Of a stretch of 64,000 nt of DNA, positions 3,539 to 61,546 are shown piece by piece. The stretch covers positions 186,001 to 250,000 of the forward strand of contig NZ_JAIVLG010000001.1 of NCBI RefSeq assembly GCF_020524545.1, written 5' to 3'. The notes under the pieces are model-generated. The model did no database searches and was not told the DNA's origin. It saw only the letters and a list, made by a program, of their open reading frames with translations. A program made the position numbers and the translations under genes. Source of the stretch: Microbacterium paraoxydans. GTDB lineage: Bacteria; Actinomycetota; Actinomycetes; Actinomycetales; Microbacteriaceae. How positions within the stretch are numbered: position 1 is the stretch's first letter; the number at the start of each line of letters is the position of its first letter.

Positions 3539-4552
3539 TCACCTGCGCAGGGGCGACCGCGCCGCCGTGCGGAGCGCACGGCTCGCAAGGGCGCGCTCGA
3601 GGTGTGCACGCCCGCCCCGCACGGCGTCCGCCACCACCCGCAGCGATCCCGGGTACTCGGTGTGTCCCGCCGGGAGCACCGCCAGCTCGACATCCCGCGC
3701 TCCCGCGGCGACCGCGAACTGTCCCTGCGGCGGCACGTACTGATCCCACAGCGCTGCCTCGACCCGCACCGGCACGCGGGCGAAACCGATGCCCGTCGAT
3801 GCGTCGAACCAGCGCAAGCCCTCCCGTGCGGACGGGTGCGCGAGCACATGCCGGCGCACCGTCTCGCCGCTGCCGAGGCACGGCACCGCCAGTCGCTCGT
3901 CGTACTGCCCGAAGCTGGGCACGATCAGCGTCGCCCCCACGTAGCGTCCGTCCCAGGGCAGGGCCAGGGCGCCGATGCCGCCGCCGAAGCTCTCGCCCAC
4001 GTAGTACAGCGGCAGGTCGCCGACCAGCGCGGTCAGCGCGTCGGCGGCGAGCCACAGATCGCGTGCGCACAGACCGAGCACGTAGCGCTCCGGATCGTCG
4101 ATGCCCCCGAGCACGTGCCGGTCGCGCGGCTCCGGCGCACCGACCCCGGCGTTCAGGGACGGCAGACCGCGGGCGACGGGGAAGATCGCCGCGGCATCGG
4201 CCGGCACCCGCGCCAGATCGATCGCGTCACGGCCGCCGTAGCCGTGTCCGTGGACGACTCCGACCCGCGCGGGAGCGTGCAGCGGCTCGACGACCCAGGC
4301 GCGTAGTCGTACCCCGTCGGAGCCGGAGTGCTCGATCACCGACACCCGGTGACCGCGCTGCGGCGCAGACGACACCACGACGGGAGCCGCGTCCACCGCT
4401 GCGGCCTCCGCGCGCCACCGCCGCCAGCGCTCGTCGAATCCGGCGGGTGCCGGTACCGGGCGCACGGAGCGCAGTTCGGCCTCGCTGCGGCCGTAGCTGC
4501 CGTCGAACGCGGCATCTGGGAACCAGGTGGAGAAGGGCTCGGGAAGAGTCAT
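3539..4552 (-). CDS. Acetyl xylan esterase family alpha/beta hydrolase
   Basis: 337 residues resembling the AXE1/cephalosporin-C deacetylase family, which removes acetyl groups from xylan or oligosaccharides. The oxyanion strand is VVHGHGYGGRDAIDL. The nucleophile serine sits in YYVGESFGGGIG near residue 185, the acid is likely the D of LWDQYVPPQG and the histidine is in LPAGHTEYPG near 300. No signal peptide is apparent, so it should act on imported, acetylated sugars. I chose the ATG at 4552 because homologous text begins at MTLPEPFSTWFPDA; an in-frame ATG at 4645 would add an Arg/Pro-rich stretch and cut into the space before the divergent regulator. It lies upstream of, but 87 bp away from, the isomerase operon. 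Confidence 0.85.
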   Translation of the reverse strand: MTLPEPFSTWFPDAAFDGSYGRSEAELRSVRPVPAPAGFDERWRRWRAEAAAVDAAPVVVSSAPQRGHRVSVIEHSGSDGVRLRAWVVEPLHAPARVGVVHGHGYGGRDAIDLARVPADAAAIFPVARGLPSLNAGVGAPEPRDRHVLGGIDDPERYVLGLCARDLWLAADALTALVGDLPLYYVGESFGGGIGALALPWDGRYVGATLIVPSFGQYDERLAVPCLGSGETVRRHVLAHPSAREGLRWFDASTGIGFARVPVRVEAALWDQYVPPQGQFAVAAGARDVELAVLPAGHTEYPGSLRVVADAVRGGRAHLERALASRALRTAARSPLRR

Positions 4553-4659
4553 GCGGGAAAGGGGATCCTGTTCCGGGAGAGAGGCGGGCGGGTGCGCGTC
4601 GACAGGGATGCGGCGAGGGGCGGCGTGGCAGACTGGAGCTCCCATCGGAAGGAGACCGC

Positions 4660-5469
4660 GTGCTGGTCACGGAACGACGTGAGCGCATCCTCGCGGTGGT
4701 GCGCGATCGCGGGACGGCGTCCATCGCCGAGCTCGCGGCGCAGCTCGACGTGAGCGAGATGACCGTCCGCCGTGACATCGACCAGCTCGCCGAGGAGGGC
4801 GCGGTCGAACGCGTCCGCGGCGGTGTGCGGGTACGCGGTGGTCACAGGCTCGCTCCGGTGCCGGCGGTGTCGGCGGAGCGGCGTGCGATTGCCGCCCTGG
4901 CCGCCGGTTTCGTCGAGCCGGGGATGGCGGTGGGCATCTCCGGCGGAGCCACCGCCCTCGCCCTCGCCCGGGAGCTCGTGCGTGTGCCGGAGCTCACGGT
5001 CGTGACGAACGCCCTCCCGGTCTCCGACCTGTTCTCGCCGCCCGAGCGCGCCGACGCACCGTACACGCAGAACGTCGTTCTCACCGGTGGTGTACGCACC
5101 CCGACGCAGGCGCTCGTCGGGCCGGTCGCCGTGCGCGCGCTGGAGCACCTGCACTGCGACCTGGTCTTCCTCGACGCGCATGGTCTCGACGTGCAGGCCG
5201 GCATGACGACCATGAACCTGCTGGAGGCCGAGACCAACAGGGCGTTCATGGCAGCGACACGTGATGTCGTCGTGCTCGCCGATCACAGCCGCTGGGGCAC
5301 GGTCGGTCTCACGACCGTCGCCGATCTCGCCGACATCGATCGCCTCGTGACCGATGACGGACTCGACGACGCGGCCAGGGAGACGCTTGCCGCTCATGTC
5401 GGCGCCGTGCACATCGCCGCGCGGCGCTCCGGAGACGATCGCGGACTCGCGGCGGGGCTCGCGGACTAG
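4660..5469 (+). CDS. DeoR/GlpR-family transcriptional regulator
   Basis: 269 residues. The N-terminal winged helix carries the DeoR signature: RERILAVVRDRGTASIAELA, then VSEMTVRRDIDQLAEEGAVERVRGG (residues 20-60). The rest is the sugar-phosphate-sensing DeoRC domain with GISGGATALALARELV near 100 and the FLDAHGLDVQAGMTT and VLADHSRWG segments. The GTG at 4660 follows a GGAAGGAGA ribosome site by 5 bases. It diverges from the esterase gene and is next to the phosphosugar operon, so it is the obvious local repressor, released by a phosphorylated sugar. Whether it binds the CCTGT-N4-ACAGG sites at 3489-3525 is untested. Confidence 0.9.
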   Translation: MLVTERRERILAVVRDRGTASIAELAAQLDVSEMTVRRDIDQLAEEGAVERVRGGVRVRGGHRLAPVPAVSAERRAIAALAAGFVEPGMAVGISGGATALALARELVRVPELTVVTNALPVSDLFSPPERADAPYTQNVVLTGGVRTPTQALVGPVAVRALEHLHCDLVFLDAHGLDVQAGMTTMNLLEAETNRAFMAATRDVVVLADHSRWGTVGLTTVADLADIDRLVTDDGLDDAARETLAAHVGAVHIAARRSGDDRGLAAGLAD

Positions 5470-33003: not shown

Positions 33004-33022
33004 CCTTCCGCCCGCACCAGCT

Positions 33023-33079
33023 TCGAATCGCGCAAATGGTCCTGTTTCATGCCGAGACGGGACCATTTGCGCGATTCGA
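33023..33079. repeat. Dispersed palindromic repeat, copy R1
   Basis: Perfect 20-bp inverted repeat: arms 33023-33042 (TCGAATCGCGCAAATGGTCC) and 33060-33079, loop 17 bases. Between convergent prpC and the ABM-domain gene. Same family as copies at 33785, 34901, 38922 and 60972. There is no T-run after the stem, so it is not a typical intrinsic terminator, though it could act as one. Confidence 0.9.
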
Positions 33080-33100
33080 GCGGGCGCAGCGGGGGACTCG

Positions 33101-33685
33101 TCAGCGGGTGAGCCAGCTCCGCAACGACCGGGTCACGAAGGGCAGCACCCAGTAGGCCATGATCGGGGTCAGGACCAGTGTCGTGAGGAGTACCCGCAGC
33201 CAGATCGGGAGGCTCTCCCATCCGGGCACGGGACTCAGCGCGTAGGTGAAGGCCAGGTTCACCGGGAAGAAGCCCAGCCAGATCGAGGTCGCCTGCTTCC
33301 ACCGCGGAGGCGCGGGTGCGATGGCGACCGTGGCGGTGCCCCCGTCGGAGGACGGGAGCGTGATCGTCCCGGTGGTCGGCTCGTCGAACCAGCCCTCGAT
33401 GCCGGTGCGCCGTTTGGAGCGCTCGCTTCGGACGAAGCCCTCGCCCATCGACAGCCACCACGTGCGCTCGGCCGACTGCTCCCACTGGACGAGCGACTCC
33501 TCGCTCGCGAAGCGGTACAGCATGTGCCAGACCTGAGAGTCCTCGCCGGCGCGCACCCAGCCCGACCCCAGGAAGCCCGGATACTTCGTCGCGAGGTTCA
33601 CCCCCGTCTGCACCCAGGCGGTCGCCTCGGTGATGCGGCCGGGGTCGACTTCGCGGCGGATGGACACGGTGACGGGCTCGGACAT
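33101..33685 (-). CDS. ABM-domain protein with two C-terminal membrane helices
   Basis: 194 residues. Residues 1-90 resemble the antibiotic-biosynthesis-monooxygenase/dimeric ferredoxin-like fold: VTVSIRREVDPGRITEATAW, YPGFLGSGWVRAGEDSQVWHMLYRFASEESLVQWEQS. Two helices near the C terminus (IWLGFFPVNLAFTYAL and LRVLLTTLVLTPIMAYWVL) make it a membrane protein. Similar actinobacterial proteins are known only from sequence; function is unknown. It is flanked by palindromic repeats R1 and R2 on both sides and shares no operon with its neighbours. Confidence 0.78.
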   Translation of the reverse strand: MSEPVTVSIRREVDPGRITEATAWVQTGVNLATKYPGFLGSGWVRAGEDSQVWHMLYRFASEESLVQWEQSAERTWWLSMGEGFVRSERSKRRTGIEGWFDEPTTGTITLPSSDGGTATVAIAPAPPRWKQATSIWLGFFPVNLAFTYALSPVPGWESLPIWLRVLLTTLVLTPIMAYWVLPFVTRSLRSWLTR

Positions 33686-33784
33686 GATGCGGTCCTCGGG
33701 ACACGGACGCTCGGGGTCGGGGCGTCGAAGCGGATGCGCCAGGGTGGCGGCGCACGGTCGATTCTAGGCGGTGTCTCCCCGGCC

Positions 33785-33843
33785 TTCGAATCGCGCAACT
33801 GGTCGGATTCTGCGGTGTGAATCGACCAGTTGCGCGATTCGAA
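33785..33843. repeat. Dispersed palindromic repeat, copy R2
   Basis: Perfect 21-bp inverted repeat: arms 33785-33805 and 33823-33843, loop 17 bases, same length as in R1. The arms read TTCGAATCGCGCAACTGG and its complement, so relative to R1 an A-T stem pair has become C-G on both sides. It sits between two minus-strand genes. Confidence 0.9.
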
Positions 33844-33850
33844 AGCGGTG

Positions 33851-34840
33851 TCAGTGGTGCAGTGCCGCCACGACCCGACGGACCAGTTCTTCCGGCTTGT
33901 GCAGGAGAGGTGAGGTGACTTCGATGACGGTCCATCCGGCGGCCCGCAGCGCCGCGATGCGCTCGACGTCCTGCGCCCAGCGGTGGTCGTGGAGCATCCC
34001 GAGGTACTCGATCGCCACTCGTTCTTGCACGTAGGCCAGATCGACGCAGGCGAGGAACCGTCCGTCCTCATCGAGCACGTCGAGATTGAGCTGCGGCTCC
34101 GGCAGCCCGGCCGAGACGAGGACATGGCGCACGTGTGTCTCCCGCGGTGACCAGGAGTCCTCGCGAATGGAGGCGAGTGCTGTGCGCAGCCGGTCGGCAC
34201 CCCGTCGACGGCCGGCCTCGAGTGCGTTCCTCAACTCCTCCACGGTCGACAGGGGTGGACGTCCCGCGTGGGGGCGTCCATGACCGGGTCTCCACTGTCG
34301 ACAGAAGTAGTCCCCGAGCGCGACGAGATCGACCACGGGCAGGTCCCCCAGCGCCACCCAGGTCGCAGCAGGCGAGGTCACTCGCAGCCCGTCGTGGATC
34401 TCGGTGGAGGTGAGGCTGGCCAGCGTGCGGTGGCCGATGATGCCGCGCGCACGAGGAAAAGGTATCGCTCCGGATGCGCTCACATGCAGGCCCAGGTGCT
34501 CCCCGGCGGCGATCTCGCCCCGCATGTCGAGTTCGAGGGGCAGAGGTGCACCCCAGATCGATGCCGCCGTCCGGTGACTGAAGAAATGGCCCGGATGCAG
34601 TCTCGCCGCGTACAGCCGGGCGCGGGCGACACGACCTCGCCGCTGTCTTTCGTAAGGGTCCGCGATGTCCGTCACGTCGTCGTCCAGAGCGTCCGCGGCG
34701 TCGCGATGCGCACGGACTCCGTGGAAAGGTGCTCGCAGGTCGGACCCGCGCAGACGACCCCGACATACCCCGTGCAGTCGCGCGATGCGTACGGAGAACG
34801 TGTCGTCGAAGCCGTCAGGTAGTGGATGTCGTCGTCCCAT
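33851..34840 (-). CDS. DUF559-type endonuclease-fold protein
   Basis: 329 residues. The last 110 residues resemble the Vsr/DUF559 PD-(D/E)XK-like domain: SPRETHVRHVLVSAGLPEP, ACVDLAYVQERVAIEYLGML, then WAQDVERIAALRAAGWTVIE. The D of CVDLAY and the E of VAIEYLG fit the metal-binding pattern. The N-terminal part (YAARLHPGHFFSHRTAASIW, VTSPAATWVALG) resembles AbiEi-like actinobacterial proteins of unknown role. Such genes are common and scattered in Microbacteriaceae; DNA cleavage is not shown. The ATG at 34840 precedes MGRRHPLPDGFDDTF, the first plausible family text; longer frames read through repeat R3. Confidence 0.8.
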   Translation of the reverse strand: MGRRHPLPDGFDDTFSVRIARLHGVCRGRLRGSDLRAPFHGVRAHRDAADALDDDVTDIADPYERQRRGRVARARLYAARLHPGHFFSHRTAASIWGAPLPLELDMRGEIAAGEHLGLHVSASGAIPFPRARGIIGHRTLASLTSTEIHDGLRVTSPAATWVALGDLPVVDLVALGDYFCRQWRPGHGRPHAGRPPLSTVEELRNALEAGRRRGADRLRTALASIREDSWSPRETHVRHVLVSAGLPEPQLNLDVLDEDGRFLACVDLAYVQERVAIEYLGMLHDHRWAQDVERIAALRAAGWTVIEVTSPLLHKPEELVRRVVAALHH

Positions 34841-34900
34841 GGACACCACCGTGGCGCAGTGCCCCCGGCCCCCGTGGTCGTCATCCACAGGCTCGCTCCC

Positions 34901-34963
34901 CGTTCGAATCGCGCAATTCGTCCAATACGAGACCCGGATGCGACAGGTTGCGCGATTCGAACG
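34901..34963. repeat. Dispersed palindromic repeat, copy R3
   Basis: Perfect 16-bp arms CGTTCGAATCGCGCAA (34901-34916) and TTGCGCGATTCGAACG (34948-34963), with a degenerate inner part. It lies just upstream of the DUF559-type gene. Same family as R1, R2 and R4. Confidence 0.85.
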
Positions 34964-34990
34964 GCCCCCAAACGGTGCCGCGACGAAGAG

Positions 34991-35040
34991 GACCCCCGCC
35001 GACCCGATTCGGCGGGGGTCTCGCGGTGTGGGAACCGCGA
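34991..35040. terminator. Strong GC hairpin with adjacent small hairpin
   Basis: Stem of 12 perfect pairs, GACCCCCGCCGA (34991-35002) with TCGGCGGGGGTC (35009-35020), loop of six, followed at once by TCGCGGT/ACCGCGA (35021-35027 with 35034-35040). No gene ends nearby on the plus strand. On the minus strand a pyrimidine-rich tail (CCTCTTCGTC) follows, which would suit a leader terminator. It could also be a small RNA end. Function uncertain. Confidence 0.5.
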
Positions 35041-35200
35041 CGGGAGCGAGAGTGCTCACCGTGCGCGCGGTAGACGTGACACCCGATCCGGTCTGAGTCT
35101 CTGTCCGCGCAAGTGCAGTTGTACCCGCGGGAGATGACCGGCCGGTGAACGCGGCGCGAACAACCTCGACGGATGCGGCGATCCACGCGGAACAAACTGA

Positions 35201-35236
35201 TAGGACGTCCTAGTAAATATCCGGACGCCGGAGTAA
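35201..35236 (+). promoter_or_regulatory. Probable operator of the valine-catabolism operon
   Basis: A 12-bp palindrome TAGGACGTCCTA (35201-35212) is followed by GTAAATA, and the related GGACGCCGGAGTAAACT follows about 22 bp later, giving a direct repeat of the form GGACGnC..AGTAAA. It lies 45-80 bp before mmsA. A dimeric (TetR-like) repressor is plausible; none is encoded beside it. Confidence 0.4.
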
Positions 35237-35278
35237 ACTCCTCAATGTGCCAACGACGGCACGGAGGGATGTCACACA

Positions 35279-36781
35279 ATGACTCGGACCATCGCCCATT
35301 TCATAGGCGGATCGCTTCTCACTCCCGACTCCGGTCGCTTCGCTGATGTGTTCGATCCGAGCACCGGTGCCGTGCAGGCGCGGGTGCCGCTCGCGTCGGC
35401 CGAGGAGGTTCGCCGGGTGATCGCGACCGCCGAGGAGGCCCAGGTCGCGTGGGCCGCGACCAACCCGCAGAAGCGTGCGCGGGTGCTGTTGCGTTTCCTC
35501 GACCTGGTGCAGCGCGAGATGACACCGCTCGCCGAGCTCCTCGCCAGCGAACACGGCAAGACGGTCGACGACGCCAAGGGCGACATCCAGCGCGGGCTCG
35601 AGGTGATCGAGTTCTCGGCCGGGGCTCCGCACCTGCTCAAGGGCGAGTACTCCACGGGTGCCGGGGCCGGGATCGACGTCTACTCGATGCGGCAGCCCCT
35701 GGGCGTGGTCGCCGCGATCACCCCTTTCAACTTCCCGGCGATGATCCCGCTGTGGAAAGCGGGGCCTGCGCTCGCCGCGGGGAACGCCGTCGTGCTCAAG
35801 CCCAGCGAGCGCGATCCCTCGGTGCCGGTGCGCCTCGCCGAGCTCTTCCTCGAAGCGGGGCTTCCCGCCGGGGTGCTCAACGTCGTGCACGGTGACAAGG
35901 AGGCGGTCGACGCGCTGCTCACCGATGACCGCATCCGCGCCGTCGGGTTCGTCGGGTCCACGCCGATCGCCGAGTACATCTACGGCACCGCGACCGCCCA
36001 CGGCAAGCGGGCGCAATGCTTCGGCGGCGCCAAGAACCACATGATCGTGATGCCGGATGCCGACCTCGACCAGGCGGTCGATGCGCTCATCGGGGCGGGC
36101 TACGGGTCGGCGGGCGAGCGCTGCATGGCGATCTCGGTGGCCGTGCCGGTCGGACAGGAGACAGCCGATGCTCTCGCCGCCAAACTCACCGACCGTGTCG
36201 CCCGACTGCGGGTCGGCCCCTCTCTCGCGGCCGATGTCGACTACGGACCCTTGGTCACTCGCGCGGCCGTGGAGCGGGTCGAGGGGTACATCCAGCAGGG
36301 CGTCGACGAAGGGGCGACCCTGCTCGCCGACGGCCGCGGCTTCACCGTCGCCGGATATGAAGACGGCTTCTACCTCGGACCGACGCTGTTCGACCATGTC
36401 ACCACCGACATGGCGATCTACCGGGAGGAGATCTTCGGCCCGGTGCTCGTGATCGCCCGTGCCGCCGACTACGAAGAGGCGCTGCGCATGGCCTCCGAGC
36501 ACGAGTACGGGAACGGCGTCGCGATCTTCACCCGTGACGGCGACGCCGCCCGGGACTTCGCCGCTCGCGTCGAGGTAGGGATGGTCGGCGTGAACGTGCC
36601 GATCCCGGTGCCGATCGCCTACTACACGTTCGGCGGATGGAAGCGCAGCGGCTTCGGCGACCTCAACCAGCACGGTACCGACGCCTTCCGCTTCTACACG
36701 AAGACCAAGACGGTGACGAGCCGCTGGCCCGCGGCGGGCATCCGCGACGGCGCCAGCTTCGTCATCCCGACCATGCACTGA
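35279..36781 (+). CDS. mmsA: Methylmalonate-semialdehyde dehydrogenase (CoA-acylating)
   Basis: 500 residues of the aldehyde dehydrogenase superfamily. The MMSDH-specific text is seen: HFIGGSLLTPDSGRFADVFD, PLGVVAAITPFNFPAMIPLW, AQCFGGAKNHMIVMPDADLD and the catalytic cysteine in GYGSAGERCMAISVAV near residue 282. Members convert (S)-methylmalonate semialdehyde to propionyl-CoA using NAD and CoA. It starts the mmsA-acyl-CoA dehydrogenase-mmsB group, typical of valine degradation. GGAGGG lies 11 bases before the ATG. Confidence 0.94.
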   Translation: MTRTIAHFIGGSLLTPDSGRFADVFDPSTGAVQARVPLASAEEVRRVIATAEEAQVAWAATNPQKRARVLLRFLDLVQREMTPLAELLASEHGKTVDDAKGDIQRGLEVIEFSAGAPHLLKGEYSTGAGAGIDVYSMRQPLGVVAAITPFNFPAMIPLWKAGPALAAGNAVVLKPSERDPSVPVRLAELFLEAGLPAGVLNVVHGDKEAVDALLTDDRIRAVGFVGSTPIAEYIYGTATAHGKRAQCFGGAKNHMIVMPDADLDQAVDALIGAGYGSAGERCMAISVAVPVGQETADALAAKLTDRVARLRVGPSLAADVDYGPLVTRAAVERVEGYIQQGVDEGATLLADGRGFTVAGYEDGFYLGPTLFDHVTTDMAIYREEIFGPVLVIARAADYEEALRMASEHEYGNGVAIFTRDGDAARDFAARVEVGMVGVNVPIPVPIAYYTFGGWKRSGFGDLNQHGTDAFRFYTKTKTVTSRWPAAGIRDGASFVIPTMH

Positions 36782-36820
36782 TCCGCACTGCCCGGCACGA
36801 GACTCCCACAAGGAACCACG

Positions 36821-38026
36821 ATGACCATGACCACCGTCACCACCACCGCCGAGGAACGCGAGGCGATCATCGGCGCCGTCCGCGAGTTCGCCGAGACCGA
36901 GCTCGCCCCGTACGCCGCGGAACGAGACGAGAAGCACTTGTTCCCGCGCGAATCGTTGCATCGTGCCGGCGAACTCGGCCTCGGCGGCATCTACGCGGAC
37001 GAGGAGTTCGGCGGCACCGGCCTCAGCCGCCGCGACACCGTCGCGATCTTCGAGGAGCTCGCGAAGGGTGATCCGGCGGTCGCGGCCTACATCTCCATCC
37101 ACAACATGGTCGTGTGGATGATCGACACCTATGGCGACGATGCGCAGCGCGGGCAGTGGTTGCCGCAGCTCACCTCGATGTCCGTGTTCGGCGGATACTG
37201 CCTGACGGAACCGGGCGCGGGATCGGACGCCGCGAACATCGCGACGAGTGCGGTGCGCGACGGCGACGACTTCGTCCTCACCGGGGTGAAGCAGTTCATC
37301 TCGGGTGCGGGCGAGGCCGCCGTCTACGTGGTGATGGCACGCACCGGAGAGCCGGGCGCGCGCGGGATCAGCGCGTTCCTGGTGGCCGGCGATGCCGAAG
37401 GGGTGAGCTTCGGGGCGCCGGAGAAGAAGATGGGCTGGCATGCGCAGCCGACCCGCCAGGTGATCCTGGACGGCGTGCGGGTTCCGGCCTCCGCCGTGCT
37501 CGGCGCTGAAGGTCGTGGATTCGCCATCGCGATGTCGGCCCTCAACGGCGGCCGGCTCAACATCGCGGCGTGTTCTCTGGGCGGCGCACAGTGGGCGCTC
37601 GACCAGGCTGTGCAGTACGTGCACGAGCGGGTGGCCTTCGGAGAGCCGCTTGCCGAGAAGCAGTCGATCCTGTTTGCGATCGCCGACATGCGCACCGACC
37701 TGCATGCTGCTCGTCTCATGGTGCGCGACGGCGCGCAGGCGGTCGACGAGGGGGCGCCCGATGCGACGATGCGCTGCGCCATGGCGAAGCGCTTCGCGAC
37801 CGATGCCGGCTTCGATGTCGCGAACCGGGCACTGCAGCTCCACGGCGGCTACGGGTATCTGCAGGACTACGGCATCGAGAAGGTGGTCCGTGACCTGCGG
37901 GTGCATCAGATCCTGGAGGGGACGAACGAGATCATGAGGCTGATCGTCGGCCGCGAGATGCTGCGACCAGCCGGATCGGCCTCCCTCCAGCGCGGCGGCG
38001 GAGACCAGACGCGGAGCGCATCATGA
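36821..38026 (+). CDS. Acyl-CoA dehydrogenase (probable isobutyryl-CoA dehydrogenase)
   Basis: 401 residues. ACAD signatures: GGYCLTEPGAGSDAANIATSA near 127, QFISGAGEAAVYVVMART, and the FAD/CoA helices GRLNIAACSLGGAQWALDQA and HGGYGYLQDYGIEKVVRD. The catalytic glutamate is most likely in ILEGTNEIMRLIVGRE near the C terminus, as in isobutyryl-CoA and short-chain dehydrogenases. The place between mmsA and mmsB fits the isobutyryl-CoA to methacrylyl-CoA step. It needs an ETF, and etfBA lie 3.5 kb downstream. Its stop overlaps mmsB. Confidence 0.93.
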   Translation: MTMTTVTTTAEEREAIIGAVREFAETELAPYAAERDEKHLFPRESLHRAGELGLGGIYADEEFGGTGLSRRDTVAIFEELAKGDPAVAAYISIHNMVVWMIDTYGDDAQRGQWLPQLTSMSVFGGYCLTEPGAGSDAANIATSAVRDGDDFVLTGVKQFISGAGEAAVYVVMARTGEPGARGISAFLVAGDAEGVSFGAPEKKMGWHAQPTRQVILDGVRVPASAVLGAEGRGFAIAMSALNGGRLNIAACSLGGAQWALDQAVQYVHERVAFGEPLAEKQSILFAIADMRTDLHAARLMVRDGAQAVDEGAPDATMRCAMAKRFATDAGFDVANRALQLHGGYGYLQDYGIEKVVRDLRVHQILEGTNEIMRLIVGREMLRPAGSASLQRGGGDQTRSAS

Positions 38027-38910
38027 CCCGCGTGGCCTTCCTCGGCCTCGGGCACATGGGGCTGCCGATGGCGAGGAACCTCGTCGCGGCTGGCCATGAG
38101 GTGCACGGCTTCGACCTCGTGCCCGCTGCCGTCGAGGCCGCGCAGGCTGTGGGGATCCCCATCGCGGATGGTGGGGCGGATGCCGTGGCCGAAGCGGACG
38201 TCGTCACCACGATGTTCCCTGCCGGAAAGCACGTGATCGAGGCGTATCGCACCGAACTGCTCGCGGCTGCGCGACCGGGCACCCTCTTCATCGAGTCGTC
38301 CACGATCGCCGTCGATGAAGCGAGGGCTGCCCACGCGCTCGCGATCGCAGCGGGACATCGCAACATCGATGCCCCGGTCTCGGGAGGTGTGGTGGGTGCC
38401 GAGAACGGAACTCTGGCCTTCATGGTCGGCGGATCGGACGAGGACTTCGCCGCGGCGCTCCCGCTGCTGGAGGTCATGGGCAAACGGATCGTGCATTGCG
38501 GTGGGCCCGGGCTCGGCCAGGCGGCGAAGGTCTGCAACAACATGGTGCTCGCGGTCTCGCAGATCGCGGTGGCCGAAGCGTTCGTGCTGGGGGAGCGGCT
38601 GGGGCTCGAGCACCAGGCGCTGTTCGACGTGGTGTCGCAGGCATCCGGGCAGTGCTGGTCGATCACGACGAACTGCCCGGTTCCCGGCCCGGTTCCCACG
38701 AGCCCTGCCAACCGCGACTATCAGCCGGGCTTCGCCGGAGCGCTCATGGCGAAGGACCTCGGACTCGCACTGCAGGCGATCGAGCAGACGTCGACCGACG
38801 CCAAGATGGGTCGGCTGGCGCAGGAGCTCTATGCCGCCTTCGCCGCCGGTGACGGAGCGACTCGGGACTTCTCCGGCATCATCACCGACATTCGTGACGA
38901 TCGTGTGTGA
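38023..38910 (+). CDS. mmsB: 3-Hydroxyisobutyrate dehydrogenase
   Basis: 295 residues of the beta-hydroxyacid dehydrogenase family. The NAD loop FLGLGHMGLPMARNLVAAGH is at the N terminus, the substrate motif DAPVSGGVVGAENGTLAFMV near 119 and the catalytic lysine segment GGPGLGQAAKVCNNMVL near 160; the C-terminal all-helical domain is complete. It oxidises 3-hydroxyisobutyrate to methylmalonate semialdehyde, the substrate of mmsA. The ATG overlaps the acyl-CoA dehydrogenase stop. Confidence 0.94.
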   Translation: MTRVAFLGLGHMGLPMARNLVAAGHEVHGFDLVPAAVEAAQAVGIPIADGGADAVAEADVVTTMFPAGKHVIEAYRTELLAAARPGTLFIESSTIAVDEARAAHALAIAAGHRNIDAPVSGGVVGAENGTLAFMVGGSDEDFAAALPLLEVMGKRIVHCGGPGLGQAAKVCNNMVLAVSQIAVAEAFVLGERLGLEHQALFDVVSQASGQCWSITTNCPVPGPVPTSPANRDYQPGFAGALMAKDLGLALQAIEQTSTDAKMGRLAQELYAAFAAGDGATRDFSGIITDIRDDRV

Positions 38911-38921
38911 CCCCCGGGGGT

Positions 38922-38980
38922 TTCGAATCGCGCAAATGGTTCCGTCCGTGGCATGGATGGATCCATTTGTGCGATTCGAA
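38922..38980. repeat. Dispersed palindromic repeat, copy R4
   Basis: Arms TTCGAATCGCGCAAATGG (38922-38939) and CCATTTGTGCGATTCGAA (38963-38980), 17 of 18 pairs; the one change makes a G-U pair in plus-strand RNA. It sits between mmsB and echA, both on the plus strand. Confidence 0.88.
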
Positions 38981-43273: not shown

Positions 43274-44929
43274 ATGGCGACGCGGATGCTGCGACGCGGG
43301 CTGCCGCGCGTGCCCGGCGGAGAGCCGTGGCCCCCTGCGCCGGAAGGCTCCTTCACCGCGGTTGCCGACACGCCAGATGTCGGACTCGCGCCCGCCACCC
43401 GTCCGACATCTGGCGTGTCGGCGGGCGAGTTGAACGGAGCCGGAGCCGGGGCCGGGAACGGAGCCGGGGCCGGAGCCGGAGCCGGAGCCGGGGCCGGGGC
43501 CGGGGCCGGGAATGGGGCCGCTGCGGGCACGGGGGAGGTCGTCGCGGCCGTTGCGGGGGGAACGGCGGTGAGCATGCGACGCGGGCTGCCGCGGACGACC
43601 GGTGGCGAGCCATGGCCTCCCACGGATGTCGTCGCCGCAGACGTGTCGTCTTCCCGTGGCGCGGCGGCGGCCCCCGTCGCATCCGCGCCGACCAGCCCGT
43701 CCGCGCCGGCCAGCACCTCAGCGCCGACCAGCTCGTCCGCTCCGGCGGTGGCGCCCGCCCCCGTCGTGTCCGCTCCGGCGGTGGCGACCGAAGGGCTGCG
43801 CCGTGGGCTGCCCCGTGTCGTGGGCGGTGAGCCCTGGCCGCCCGCCGATACCACCCCGACGATCTCCGCTGCCGCGGCCCTCGTCGAAGCTCCCGCTCCT
43901 GCCCCCGCAGCCGCGCCCGTCCCGTCGTCCGCTGTCGCCACCGTCGCCGCGGTCGACACGCCGCTGGCGTGGAGGCGCACGGTCTGGAACGGGCGCGCGC
44001 CCCGAAGCATCGCCGCGGTGGAGGCCTCCGGGCGTCGTCGTCCGACCTGGACGCAGGCGATCGCCGTCCTGTTCGGTGCCGCCGCGCTCGGAGTGCTCGC
44101 CGGTGCAGCCATCGCGCTGGTCCGCACTCTCCTGAGCCTGCCGTTCATGCAGGATTTCCTCGCGGCCTTCCCGGGCGAGTACGAACCGGCCATCGCGGTC
44201 GAGCCCGGCTTCGCACCGTGGGTGAACTGGGCGCACTTCTTCAACATGTTCCTGATGGTGCTGATCATCCGCTCCGGGCTCCAGGTGCGCACCGAGAAGC
44301 GTCCGACCGTCTTCTGGACGCCGCGGGGCAATGCGAAGGGCAAGATCAGCCTCAACCTGTGGTTCCACCAGGCCCTCGACATCCTGTGGCTCGTGAACGG
44401 GGTCATCTTCGTGGTGCTGCTCTTCGCCACGGGACACTGGGTGCGCATCGTGCCGACCAGTTGGGAAGTCTTCCCGAATGCGCTGTCGGCGGCGCTGCAG
44501 TACGTCTCCTTCGACTGGCCGCATGAGAACGGCTGGAACAACTACAACAGCCTCCAGCAGCTCGCGTACTTCGCGACCGTGTTCATCGCGGCCCCGCTCG
44601 CGGCGATCACCGGATTCCGGATGTCGGGGCTGTGGCCGAAGAAGGCCGAGAAGTTGTCGAAGGCGTACCCGGTGGAATGGGCGCGTGCCCTGCACTTCCC
44701 GATCATGCTGTACTTCGTGGCGTTCATCATCGCGCACGTCGCACTCGTGATGCTGACCGGATTCCTGCGCAACCTGAACCACATGTTCGCTGCGCAGGAC
44801 GCCGCCACCTGGACCGGCTTCTGGGTGTTCGTCCTGTCGCTCGTGGTGATCGCGATCGGCTGGGTCGCGGCACGTCCACTGGTGCTGGCGCCGATCGCGA
44901 AGGTGTTCGGGAAGGTCTCGGGGCGCTGA
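43274..44929 (+). CDS. Cytochrome b/b6-domain membrane protein with repeat-rich N terminus
   Basis: 551 residues. The C-terminal 300 carry about six membrane helices and histidines in WVNWAHFFNMFLMVLIIRSG, NLWFHQALDILWLVNGVI, ALHFPIMLYFVAFIIAHVAL and nearby, the pattern of di-haem cytochrome b561-type electron carriers. The N-terminal 230 residues are low complexity (Ala/Pro/Gly) but contain three near-identical motifs, RRGLPRVPGGEPWPP (about 7-21), RRGLPRTTGGEPWPP (about 102) and RRGLPRVVGGEPWPP (about 176). A palindrome at 43364-43422 is read in frame, as is a hexanucleotide GA-coding repeat at 43435-43520. It starts two bases after etfA, so it is part of that operon and may pass ETF electrons to quinone. 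Family fairly sure; role inferred. Confidence 0.85.
   Translation: MATRMLRRGLPRVPGGEPWPPAPEGSFTAVADTPDVGLAPATRPTSGVSAGELNGAGAGAGNGAGAGAGAGAGAGAGAGNGAAAGTGEVVAAVAGGTAVSMRRGLPRTTGGEPWPPTDVVAADVSSSRGAAAAPVASAPTSPSAPASTSAPTSSSAPAVAPAPVVSAPAVATEGLRRGLPRVVGGEPWPPADTTPTISAAAALVEAPAPAPAAAPVPSSAVATVAAVDTPLAWRRTVWNGRAPRSIAAVEASGRRRPTWTQAIAVLFGAAALGVLAGAAIALVRTLLSLPFMQDFLAAFPGEYEPAIAVEPGFAPWVNWAHFFNMFLMVLIIRSGLQVRTEKRPTVFWTPRGNAKGKISLNLWFHQALDILWLVNGVIFVVLLFATGHWVRIVPTSWEVFPNALSAALQYVSFDWPHENGWNNYNSLQQLAYFATVFIAAPLAAITGFRMSGLWPKKAEKLSKAYPVEWARALHFPIMLYFVAFIIAHVALVMLTGFLRNLNHMFAAQDAATWTGFWVFVLSLVVIAIGWVAARPLVLAPIAKVFGKVSGR
43364..43422. repeat. Perfect 22-bp palindrome inside the cytochrome-b-like gene
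   Basis: Arms 43364-43385 (starting GCCGACACGCCAGATGTCGG) and 43401-43422 are perfectly complementary over 22 bp around a 15-base loop. It encodes residues about 31-50 of the protein's disordered linker. No second copy of this sequence was seen in the window. Confidence 0.88.
43435..43520. repeat. GGAGCC/GGGGCC hexanucleotide repeat (Gly-Ala tract)
   Basis: A run of about 14 units of GGAGCC, GGGGCC and variants with one AAC/AAT break encodes an alternating Gly-Ala tract. Such tracts change length easily by slippage; units are multiples of three, so the frame would be kept. Confidence 0.85.
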
Positions 44930-60496: not shown

Positions 60497-61546
60497 TCAG
60501 GATTCCGGGAGCGCGGAGCCGGTGGGGTAGCCCAGCACGGTGCTCTGCTCCCGCGCGAAGGCGCTCGTGATCCGGTGGGCGATGAGCCAGCGGCCGTCGA
60601 CCCGGTGGTAGATGACATCGTAGAAGCCCCTCATCGCGAGGCGCGGCGCTCCGGTGTCTTCGGCGTAGTCGCCGTGGAACTCCAGGTGGATGCGGGACGT
60701 CGCGCGATCACCGTCGACGACGAGCTGCGGAAGGTGCAGGAAGTGGATGCCCGCGAACGAGGCGTCCGCGCAGAAGGCCCGGAGCGCCACCCGGCCCTGC
60801 ACGAAGGTCAGGGGAGCAGCATCTCCGACCGGCCGCGACTGGTACACGCCGTCCTCGGTGAAGAGCCCGCTCCACGTCTCCCCGTCGCGCTCGTCGAAGG
60901 CGCGGGCGTACGTGGCCTCCAGGTCGATGATCTCGAGCCGATCCTCGAGGGCACGGAGGCGCTGCTCGACGTTCGAGTCGCGCGAACGGCTCGATTCTTC
61001 GCCGATGTGGAGCCCTTTGCGCGATTCGAAGAGGGCGGTGTCCGCGACGGACCGACGCACCGCGAGGGAGGGATCCTCCGGACCACGGCGACCGCGCGGG
61101 CCTTCGCCTTCCGGCTCGCGCATGCGCCCCGCGTCGGACCTCGTCCATTCGCGCACGGCCGTGCGTTCGACGATGCGCCAGCCGTCGGGGTCGCGTCGCA
61201 CATGATCGAGGTACCGGAAACCGCTCGTGAAGTTGCGGGTCTCGTCGTCAGCGGGTGCGCCCCAGTGCACCGCTGTGCCGTAGGTCTCGGCGAAGGCGTG
61301 ATCGCCGAACAGCTCGACCCGGTGGTTGCCGATGAGGTGCATCGTGCCGGCGAAGACGGACGTGCGCTCGCGCAGCCACGCGACATAGTCGTCGGCCGTG
61401 CCGGAGAACCCGGTGTGATGGTCGACTCCGTCGTGGGCGTAGACGTCCCGGACGCCGGGGTAGTCGGCACGGTCGACCGCTGCGCAGTAGCGGAGCACGA
61501 GGTCGTGGATCTCCTGCCGGTCCGAGAGCTCGGCGAGGGTGTTCAT
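60497..61546 (-). CDS. Fused tandem SnoaL/NTF2-like protein with palindromic linker
   Basis: 349 residues made of two NTF2-like domains: domain 1 from MNTLAELSDRQEIHDLVLRY to about residue 140, and domain 2 from about 193 (VEQRLRALEDRLEIIDLEAT) to the end. Single-domain SnoaL proteins are about 145 residues. The linker (about 150-192) is Arg/Glu-rich and its end, residues 173-192, is encoded by the palindrome 60972-61030. No stop or start codon separates the domains, so a fusion through the repeat is the simplest reading. The ATG at 61546 overlaps the upstream SDR stop. Confidence 0.8.
   Translation of the reverse strand: MNTLAELSDRQEIHDLVLRYCAAVDRADYPGVRDVYAHDGVDHHTGFSGTADDYVAWLRERTSVFAGTMHLIGNHRVELFGDHAFAETYGTAVHWGAPADDETRNFTSGFRYLDHVRRDPDGWRIVERTAVREWTRSDAGRMREPEGEGPRGRRGPEDPSLAVRRSVADTALFESRKGLHIGEESSRSRDSNVEQRLRALEDRLEIIDLEATYARAFDERDGETWSGLFTEDGVYQSRPVGDAAPLTFVQGRVALRAFCADASFAGIHFLHLPQLVVDGDRATSRIHLEFHGDYAEDTGAPRLAMRGFYDVIYHRVDGRWLIAHRITSAFAREQSTVLGYPTGSALPES
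60972..61030. repeat. Degenerate in-frame copy of the dispersed palindromic repeat, R5
   Basis: Arms 60972-60989 (TTCGAGTCGCGCGAACGG) and 61013-61030 (complement of TTCGAATCGCGCAAAGGG) pair at 15 of 18 positions. The right arm has the R1-R4 core GCGCGATTCGAA unchanged. It lies inside an open frame, in the linker of the fused SnoaL protein. Confidence 0.75.

Follow-up and report, generated by a model that had tools for sequence, protein, structure and literature searches.

The window analysed here, a 64,000-nt stretch of a Microbacterium genome, contains a gene for a nuclease-like protein that lies between two members of a group of 59-bp palindromes, R1 to R4, together with a more distant and weaker copy, R5. 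The features are as follows:

33022..33080, no strand: R1, a 59-bp palindrome with convergent genes on either side
33785..33843, no strand: R2, a 59-bp palindrome 7 nt past the stop codon of the nuclease gene
33851..34840, minus strand: nuclease-like gene (329 aa) with a DUF559/Vsr-like domain at the C-terminus (residues 231-329)
34903..34961, no strand: R3, a 59-bp palindrome 62 nt ahead of the start codon of the nuclease gene
38922..38980, no strand: R4, a 59-bp palindrome between two tandem genes, 11 nt past the stop of the first
60972..61030, no strand: R5, a weaker fifth copy with 2 of 20 end or 28 arm bases changed

The original prediction had described four palindromes, R1 to R4, and all of them are present, each exactly 59 bp long. 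Two of its finer details are likewise found in the sequence: an A-T pair has become C-G between R1 and R2, and R4 contains a G-T pair, a change that would still pair as G-U in RNA. R5, which was absent from that list, is placed within an open frame with SnoaL-like domains on both sides, and the R4 site is common to three other Microbacterium genomes. Folded as single-stranded DNA, R1, R2, R3, and R4 gave z-scores of -10.7, -10.8, -5.3, and -8.5, respectively, and in each case none of 200 shuffles did as well; for R5, the z-score was -2.95 and 1 of 200 shuffles was equally good. When single arms were counted in the window alone (up to 3 mismatches), there were 12 matches versus 6.4 by chance (sd 2.6), a number reached by 3 of 100 shuffles, which is modestly above chance.

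The strength of the family is in its paired arms genome-wide, rather than in single arms in the window. Across the genome, we found 40 copies whose two 10-bp ends together carry no more than 3 mismatches (34, 5, 1, and 0 copies with 0, 1, 2, and 3 mismatches, respectively), 35 copies with up to 3 mismatches across 28 arm bases, and 18 copies with perfect 14-bp arms in a scan that let 16-45 bases stand between the arms; the same three scans run with the reversed pattern as a control yielded none. All 18 perfect-arm copies are 59 bp long, a length that rests on end-anchored matches, the flank length histogram being unusable because lengths nested around one centre receive similar scores. Changes in the two arms are correlated (0 of 3000 shuffles as good), with a z-score of 5.9 at positions 11-20 and no clear covariation at positions 21-29, in line with the earlier claim that they vary together. 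The ends are nearly invariant within a genome, and the copies of one genome diverge so widely inside that nothing points to a recent burst. According to a home-made gene caller, 37 of the 40 copies lie between two called genes, as had been anticipated, while 2 overlap a called gene and 1 is at the edge of a stretch. Copies with exact ends were found in 68 of 366 genomes of the genus. Thus, the family is neither peculiar to its own genome nor equally common in unstructured form in coding DNA, and the copy counts, intergenic location, covariation, and folding support the earlier view of a REP-like, hairpin-forming repeat family. Exact-end matches outside Microbacterium (Rhizobium, Gastranaerophilales, and others), among the matches listed, look like chance or unrelated repeats, and viral spread was rejected as viral contigs gave 0 matches.

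The C-terminus of the 329-aa protein (residues 231-329) has a predicted fold whose top Foldseek match is the homing endonuclease I-Bth0305I (E 0.013, probability 1.00); none of the matches was as good as E 0.001. In structural comparison with the C-terminal model, I-Bth0305I scored VIA Z 11.5 (rmsd 2.3, 91 residues), Vsr Z 9.9, and TnsA Z 6.8, and a sequence search for solved structures returned nothing useful. Beyond the C-terminus, the structure model is of low quality (mean pLDDT 52), and the N-terminus is possibly a winged helix. Residues E234, D267, E278, H284, and D291 are shared by all 49 sequences compared; we take them to be the catalytic residues of EDxHD/Vsr-like nucleases. On the predicted model, residues 231-329 would adopt a Vsr-like catalytic fold. 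In Pfam, the homologues carry DUF559 (32/39), MTES_1575 (9/39), and AbiEi_4 (1/39), and scans with Pfam, NCBIfam, and PADLOC gave no match to transposase families. The same domain make-up is seen in AbiEi-like plus DUF559/MTES_1575 proteins of Actinobacteria, a family for which we know of no flanking palindromes and for which PMC titles and abstract openings do not mention any.

Just as R2 and R3 flank the nuclease gene in the window, palindromes flank its homologues. With a threshold of at least 14 of 20 outer pairs, 59-bp palindromes were found on both sides of 32 of 49 homologues, on one side of 11, and on neither side of 6; the upstream and downstream arms at a single gene are alike at 18.4 of 20 positions, compared to 12.0 of 20 between genes. 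At further named loci with homologues, which are probably four genomes of the same homologue survey and are counted once, an exact or near-exact element adjoins the gene in 4 of 4, on both sides in 3. Where copies of TTCGAATCGC are missing, palindromes with other arms flank the gene. In the cases tested, the arms of the dispersed copies match those beside the gene of the same genome; for example, genomes G070, G333, G226, and G345 hold 17, 15, 12, and 15 palindromes close to their own flanking arms, respectively, and G073 holds only 4 with its flanking arms, two of them adjoining the gene. Among distant homologues, the flanks share at least 18 of 20 bases in 27 of 44 cases, versus 5 of 800 mismatched flank pairs, and matching flanks were also found in other genera; of the control genes, 2 of 290 have matching flanks, one being the gene between R1 and R2. 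The flanking palindromes end in TTC...GAA or YTCC...GGAR, and these ends are paired. Close homologues are present in 12 of 16 genomes with at least 12 exact copies, versus 21 of 350 others (kinship ignored). Copies also persist without the gene, since a close homologue is missing from 15 of the 29 genomes that carry 5 or more exact copies; two M. oxydans genomes of this kind hold 26 and 10 copies. Taken together, these results indicate a strong association of the nuclease gene family with cognate palindromes.

A RayT partner, as suggested by the original prediction, did not hold up: RAYT (Y1_Tnp, PF01797) is absent from the genome of the window and matched in 1 of 366 genus genomes, G355, itself without exact-end copies, and we rejected it as the partner of the palindromes. 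Because the palindromes that flank it are cognate, the Vsr-like nuclease gene between R2 and R3 is the candidate partner instead. The arrangement resembles REPIN-RAYT systems, as outlined in the excerpted accounts of REP doublets forming hairpins and of REP-associated tyrosine transposases (PMC3116915; PMC3733652), in its extragenic hairpins, which are dispersed, constant in length, nearly invariant at their ends, and altered inside by compensatory changes, in the location of the repeats mainly behind genes (PMC3733652), and in that cognate repeats of a type specific to each gene adjoin the gene, but the partner gene here is another one, with a Vsr-like nuclease domain. Like the CGTC-tagged REPs, which the relevant text of PMC3733652 describes without a dedicated transposase, these are short palindromic repeats behind genes and have no RAYT; however, they differ in sequence and phyla, and a candidate partner gene exists here. 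The words "Microbacterium" and "Actinobacteria" are absent from the main text of that paper (PMC3733652). Unlike GTAG/CGTC-tagged REPs, the Microbacterium palindromes carry no unpaired GTAG or CGTC tag, and their ends (TTC...GAA or related) are paired. Integron attC sites, which belong with the integrase IntI and GTTRRRY core sites, are similar in size and in their place behind genes, but the ends of the palindromes are unlike that core. I-Bth0305I shares the predicted C-terminal fold and the conserved E, D, E, H, and D; its gene resides in a group I intron, whereas the Microbacterium gene is free-standing between palindromes and its product has a possible winged-helix N-terminus.

We therefore consider it rather probable that the 59-bp palindromes form the non-autonomous, dispersed component of a REPIN-like system partnered by the unrelated Vsr-like nuclease gene between R2 and R3, and we infer that the nuclease binds, cuts, and spreads the palindromes. 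In such a system, the protein would recognise its own palindrome, as a cruciform, a single-strand hairpin at replication, or a duplex, via its N-terminal and middle parts, and the C-terminal EDxHD/Vsr-like domain would nick or cut. Repair would then copy the palindrome, or the whole palindrome-gene-palindrome unit, to a new place, preferably a short gap behind a gene or a spot already holding a palindrome, and recombination of the two flanking palindromes may delete the gene and leave a single solo palindrome. Arm pairing and fixed length would be retained because the enzyme needs the hairpin, and arms and enzyme would diverge together, giving every lineage an arm sequence of its own. Besides the cognate flanks, a nuclease-like unit found in place of an element in G152 (described below) favours this reading. 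Counting against it are the copy-rich genomes that lack a close homologue, the 6 homologues with no flanking palindrome, the wide internal divergence of copies, the poor model outside the C-terminus, and orthologous comparisons that mostly show loss, with neither a clean empty site nor a target duplication seen.

Alternatively, the palindromes may be host elements selected at gene ends, either as bidirectional terminators without a T-run or as hairpins protecting mRNA 3' ends, with the nuclease as a passenger settling there. Several observations are consistent with this. Of 34 copies in tandem or convergent gaps, 28 begin within 22 nt of a stop codon, and 3 of 37 copies lie between divergent genes. 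Many orthologous copy sites are common to different species and retain the ends and the 59-bp length while the interior is altered; the mismatch counts (34/5/1/0) point the same way, as does the persistence of copies where the nuclease gene was not found. In relatives, a terminator-like hairpin with a T-run replaces the element at one site (G002), and a hairpin followed by TTTT stands at another (G071). However, position behind genes does not discriminate, as REPs with a RAYT partner sit likewise in the text of PMC3733652 on their placement. Unlike intrinsic terminators, in which a GC-rich hairpin precedes a T-run, the window copies have no T-run 3' of them, as read from the window sequence; this fits the earlier statement that they are not terminators, whereas the terminator-like placement and the one relative with a terminator-like hairpin there leave that statement in doubt. 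The host-element explanation also leaves the matching pair of palindromes at each gene and the gene-linked arm changes unexplained, and we regard it as rather unlikely.

It is quite improbable that the palindromes serve as sites bound by the winged-helix nuclease-like protein or by a different chromosomal factor, e.g., one acting near the origin, with the gene autoregulated by its flanking sites and moving none of them. The near-invariant ends and the position of R3 ahead of the start codon would fit, as would the clustering of copies near dnaA: the origin half of the chromosome contains 26 of 30 copies in G173 and 20 of 22 in G152 (KS p 8e-9 and 3e-9, respectively; many sites are common to both genomes), the opposite of a matS-like clustering at the terminus, which was rejected. 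Close relatives, however, lack most copies with no known defect (in G002, the 5 own sites compared comprise 1 good copy, 1 decayed copy, and 3 without a copy). Moreover, the gene unit is found at several places in the genus and a similar unit occupies the place of an element, which together point to mobility. In this single case, a 1.2-kb unit in G152 replaces a perfect 59-bp element of G173 and retains one end of the old element; the unit is another nuclease-like gene between palindromes of its own, with no match to the family profile and with Pfam matches under the curated cut-offs. The comparison is suggestive of a target occupied, in a homing-like manner, by a copied-in nuclease unit. The comparison of gene-unit with single-palindrome loci is biased, as L009, L040, L041, L046, and L159 were chosen for holding palindromes; free of that bias, a third-family palindrome stands at the place of a B gene in blindly picked DNA of G071, and three other blindly compared gene-unit places (G071 twice, G002 once) showed no palindrome.

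Orthologous comparisons mostly show old shared sites and loss rather than gain; among them, we saw neither a 59-bp palindrome inserted into a clean empty site nor a target duplication. A duplicated TTCGAA target, which is palindromic and hence a direct repeat at both ends, was rejected because B-type elements end otherwise and no clean empty site was seen. It is very improbable that the unit is an ordinary IS bounded by palindromic ends, with the dispersed copies as its MITEs: the gene does sit between repeats, its C-terminal fold is also TnsA-like, and one unit lies within an older element, but each end is a complete palindrome, copies of the same genome have diverged inside, and the homologues match no transposase family in the three scans.

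Returning to the nuclease-partnered, REPIN-like system, we hold with roughly even confidence that it exemplifies a kind of self-spreading element that is common across Actinomycetales and has yet to be described, in which AbiEi-like Vsr-fold nuclease genes home via their own palindromes. Each subfamily would have its own palindrome type, single palindromes would be targets and solo remnants, and the subfamilies would compete for places behind genes.

To our knowledge, REPINs have so far been linked to one enzyme class. If our reading is true, the REPIN lifestyle would have arisen a second time, independently, with a nuclease replacing the HUH transposase, and DUF559/MTES_1575, a gene family much annotated yet unexplained, would gain a role. 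If a Vsr/homing-type nuclease keeps and spreads hairpins, it may also be a candidate partner for the palindromes of genomes without RAYT, such as the CGTC REPs and those of many Actinobacteria. The matched enzyme-palindrome pairs would then form a natural series in which the co-change of a protein and its DNA hairpin could be tested.

The four palindromes of the original prediction (R1 to R4) were confirmed in the sequence, each exactly 59 bp long, and a fifth copy was found in the window, which includes the following features.

33022-33080: palindrome R1
33785-33843: palindrome R2
33851-34840, minus strand: nuclease gene, 329 aa
34903-34961: palindrome R3
38922-38980: palindrome R4
60972-61030: fifth copy, R5

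The window's longest inverted repeat (43352-43434; 34-nt arms, 85% complementary) is unrelated to this family. When we searched the window's own genome (G000; 3.58 Mb, 17 contigs) for perfect 14-bp arms, permitting 16-45 bases between them, 18 copies were returned, every one of 59 bp; allowing up to three mismatches across the 28 arm bases gave 35 copies, and up to three across both 10-bp ends gave 40, with no end mismatch in 34, one in 5, two in 1, and three in 0. Reversed-pattern controls gave no matches in G000. Across the 40 copies, half-site positions 1-10 (TTCGAATCGC) are almost invariant; further in, the positions are degenerate and the centre is weakly conserved. The 130 copies outside G000 were selected by their ends, so end conservation in them is not independent. 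A search of other genomes, as the original prediction had proposed, showed that the exact-end family occurs in further Microbacterium genomes, the named relatives among the matches listed being Microbacterium species. Three AT-rich palindromes of 60-62 bp with TTCGAATCGC ends, spaced about 290 bp apart at a Gastranaerophilales MAG contig end (L081), are probably another repeat.

Pairing was examined by shuffling half-sites within genomes (113 copies from 11 genomes, each carrying 3 or more). Positions 11-20 pair above expectation (885 vs 818.4, z 5.9, 0/3000 shuffles; G000 alone, z 4.1, 0/3000 shuffles), bearing out the prediction that the arms vary together, and no clear excess was seen at positions 21-23 or 24-29 (542 and 319 of 3000 shuffles, respectively, equal or exceed the observed value); the stem thus spans about 20 bp and closes a centre of roughly 19 nt. 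Folded as DNA, R1 to R5 gave z between -10.8 and -2.95.

The gene neighbourhoods of the G000 copies, called with a home-made gene caller, agree with the predicted intergenic placement: 37 of the 40 copies lie between genes (24 in tandem, 10 in convergent, and 3 in divergent gaps), 2 share bases with a called gene, and 1 lies at the edge of its stretch. The background in these stretches, counting gaps no shorter than 59 bp, was 59 tandem, 17 convergent, and 35 divergent. In 28/34 tandem or convergent cases no more than 22 nt separate a stop codon from the start of the copy. R5 falls inside a minus-strand open frame (60497-61546), where it stands between two SnoaL-like domains and may be translated as a linker. 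The origin-proximal half is where copies gather in the chromosomes of four genus genomes: the half around dnaA holds 26/30 copies in G173 and 20/22 in G152, two genomes that have sites in common and are therefore not independent; G071 agrees (5/5), and in G085 9 of the ten sites used fall within 440 kb of dnaA.

The 170 distinct copies include 30 groups that share both flanks with another copy, and at orthologous sites with flank identity near 84% the ends and length are retained while the interior is largely different. Near relatives can miss most copies: five G000 sites compared in G002 gave 1 good copy, 1 decayed copy, and 3 without a copy, and G071 has a copy at one of two. The sites are therefore old, and some lineages have lost many of them. 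In L144 and L179, quite different palindromes (CGTCTGTTTCTGCCGTATG; CGCGATATGTCACCTGAA) lie at places that hold TTCGAATCGC elements in other genomes.

The suggested RayT partner did not hold up, as a REP-associated tyrosine transposase (RAYT) was found in 1/366 genus genomes. The nuclease gene lies between R2, 7 nt past its stop, and R3, 62 nt ahead of its start; beside R3, at 34980-35035, is a terminator-like hairpin (AGACCCCCGCCGA...TCGGCGGGGGTCT) that is near-unchanged in many genus genomes. Homologues at E 1e-40 or better occur in 216/366 genomes. Flanks were scored for 49 of them (the top 30 of the search plus 20 picked from its list, minus a broken G152 remnant), and 59-bp palindromes lie on both sides in 32, on one side in 11, and on neither in 6 (24, 4, and 2 for the 30 best; 8, 7, and 4 for the remaining 19). 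Among the palindromes flanking the 30 best, many carry arms that differ from TTCGAATCGC (e.g., TTCAAAGAGCGCAAACGG, TTCGAGGAGCGATG, and TTCGAGTCGCATG), and arms beside the remaining 19 include CTCCCGTGGCAG and CTCCGGTATGAG. Within a gene's own pair of palindromes 18.4/20 arm bases agree, vs 12.0 between genes. Four genomes without exact TTCGAATCGC copies hold palindromes within 3 mismatches of the gene-flanking-arm pattern (G070, 17; G333, 15; G226, 12; G345, 15, its sequences being among the matches listed), a point that rests on the listed sequences and not on counts alone, as the loose pattern also catches 26 G000 copies. G073 has 4 such palindromes, two at the gene; B-type palindromes, with ends other than those of R1 to R4, were found apart from the gene twice in 280 kb of G002 and once in M. 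oxydans BEL163. Two more nuclease homologues in G000 each lie between palindromes of their own type.

C1:314000-317500 (L306): flanking palindromes of 58 bp, GTGCGGGATC arms
C1:525600-529200 (L307): flanking palindromes of 49-51 bp, GAGAAGG arms

A profile built from 39 homologues matched 207/396 genomes of the order, in 56/109 genera, at E 1e-25 or better. We located 45 distant homologues and, one being short of flank, scored 44 by the best 20-mer common to both flanks. At least 18/20 bases matched in 27/44 distant and 36/48 nearer homologues, in 5/800 mismatched pairings of flanks from the distant set, and in 2/290 control genes, one being the gene between R1 and R2. Other genera or families contributed 19 of the 44, and 11 of these 19 reach 18. 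A fatty-acid-desaturase-like control gene without nuclease homology (L209 of G002, 4003-5034) has flanks agreeing at 18/20 bases.

Pfam matches in the 39 homologues were DUF559 (32), MTES_1575 (9), and AbiEi_4 (1); the window protein matches DUF559 at E 1.4e-4, marginally above the curated cut-off. The AlphaFold model built for it on five sequences has poor overall quality (mean pLDDT 52) and is good at residues 231-329. Foldseek gave no match under E 0.001, the top match being I-Bth0305I (E 0.013, prob 1.00, TM by target 0.69-0.71); VIA-align Z was 11.5 for I-Bth0305I, 9.9 for Vsr, and 6.8 for TnsA. Residues E234, D267, E278, H284, and D291 are invariant in 49/49 sequences. From predicted secondary structure and weak AbiEi matches, we read the N-terminus as a putative winged helix.

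Common flanks of close homologues (best E below 1e-110 in the genus-wide search; 33 genomes) are seen in one group of 22 genomes, another of 5, and a few elsewhere. A perfect 59-bp element lies at 2050729 in G173; at this place G152 has, in a single case of replacement, 1.2 kb of DNA in which a different gene stands between two 83-89-bp palindromes, and the old element's last 11 bases persist beside it. That gene is unmatched by the 39-homologue profile, and its Pfam matches (MTES_1575, E 3e-8; AbiEi_4, E 1e-4; DUF559, E 1e-3) are all below curated cut-offs. At the nuclease gene's second place G000 has a single palindrome, in a comparison biased by fetching loci for their palindromes.

With kinship ignored, a close homologue is present in 14/29 genomes that have 5 or more exact copies vs 19/337 others (p 4e-9), and in 12/16 that have 12 or more vs 21/350 others (p 5e-11). 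G152, one of 15 copy-rich genomes without a close homologue, retains a broken remnant; M. oxydans G167 (10 copies) and G170 (26 copies) are also without one. Mainly in view of this persistence of copies in genomes where no close homologue was found, the hairpins at gene ends may have a role in the host.

In the PMC literature, with subscription papers and preprints largely beyond its scope, the arm sequences are absent, and titles and abstract starts gave no link of DUF559 to palindromes or of AbiEi/DUF559 to repeats, nor any such link under REPIN/RAYT in Actinobacteria or Microbacterium palindromes. The system resembles REPIN-RAYT, as described in PMC3116915 and PMC3733652, in palindrome anatomy, place behind genes, and a cognate gene; however, the defining enzyme is absent and a Vsr/homing-fold enzyme is in its place, and we therefore class it as REPIN-like and not as a REPIN-RAYT member. 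The most economical reading is that the nuclease is a putative agent of both recognition and copying of the palindromes.
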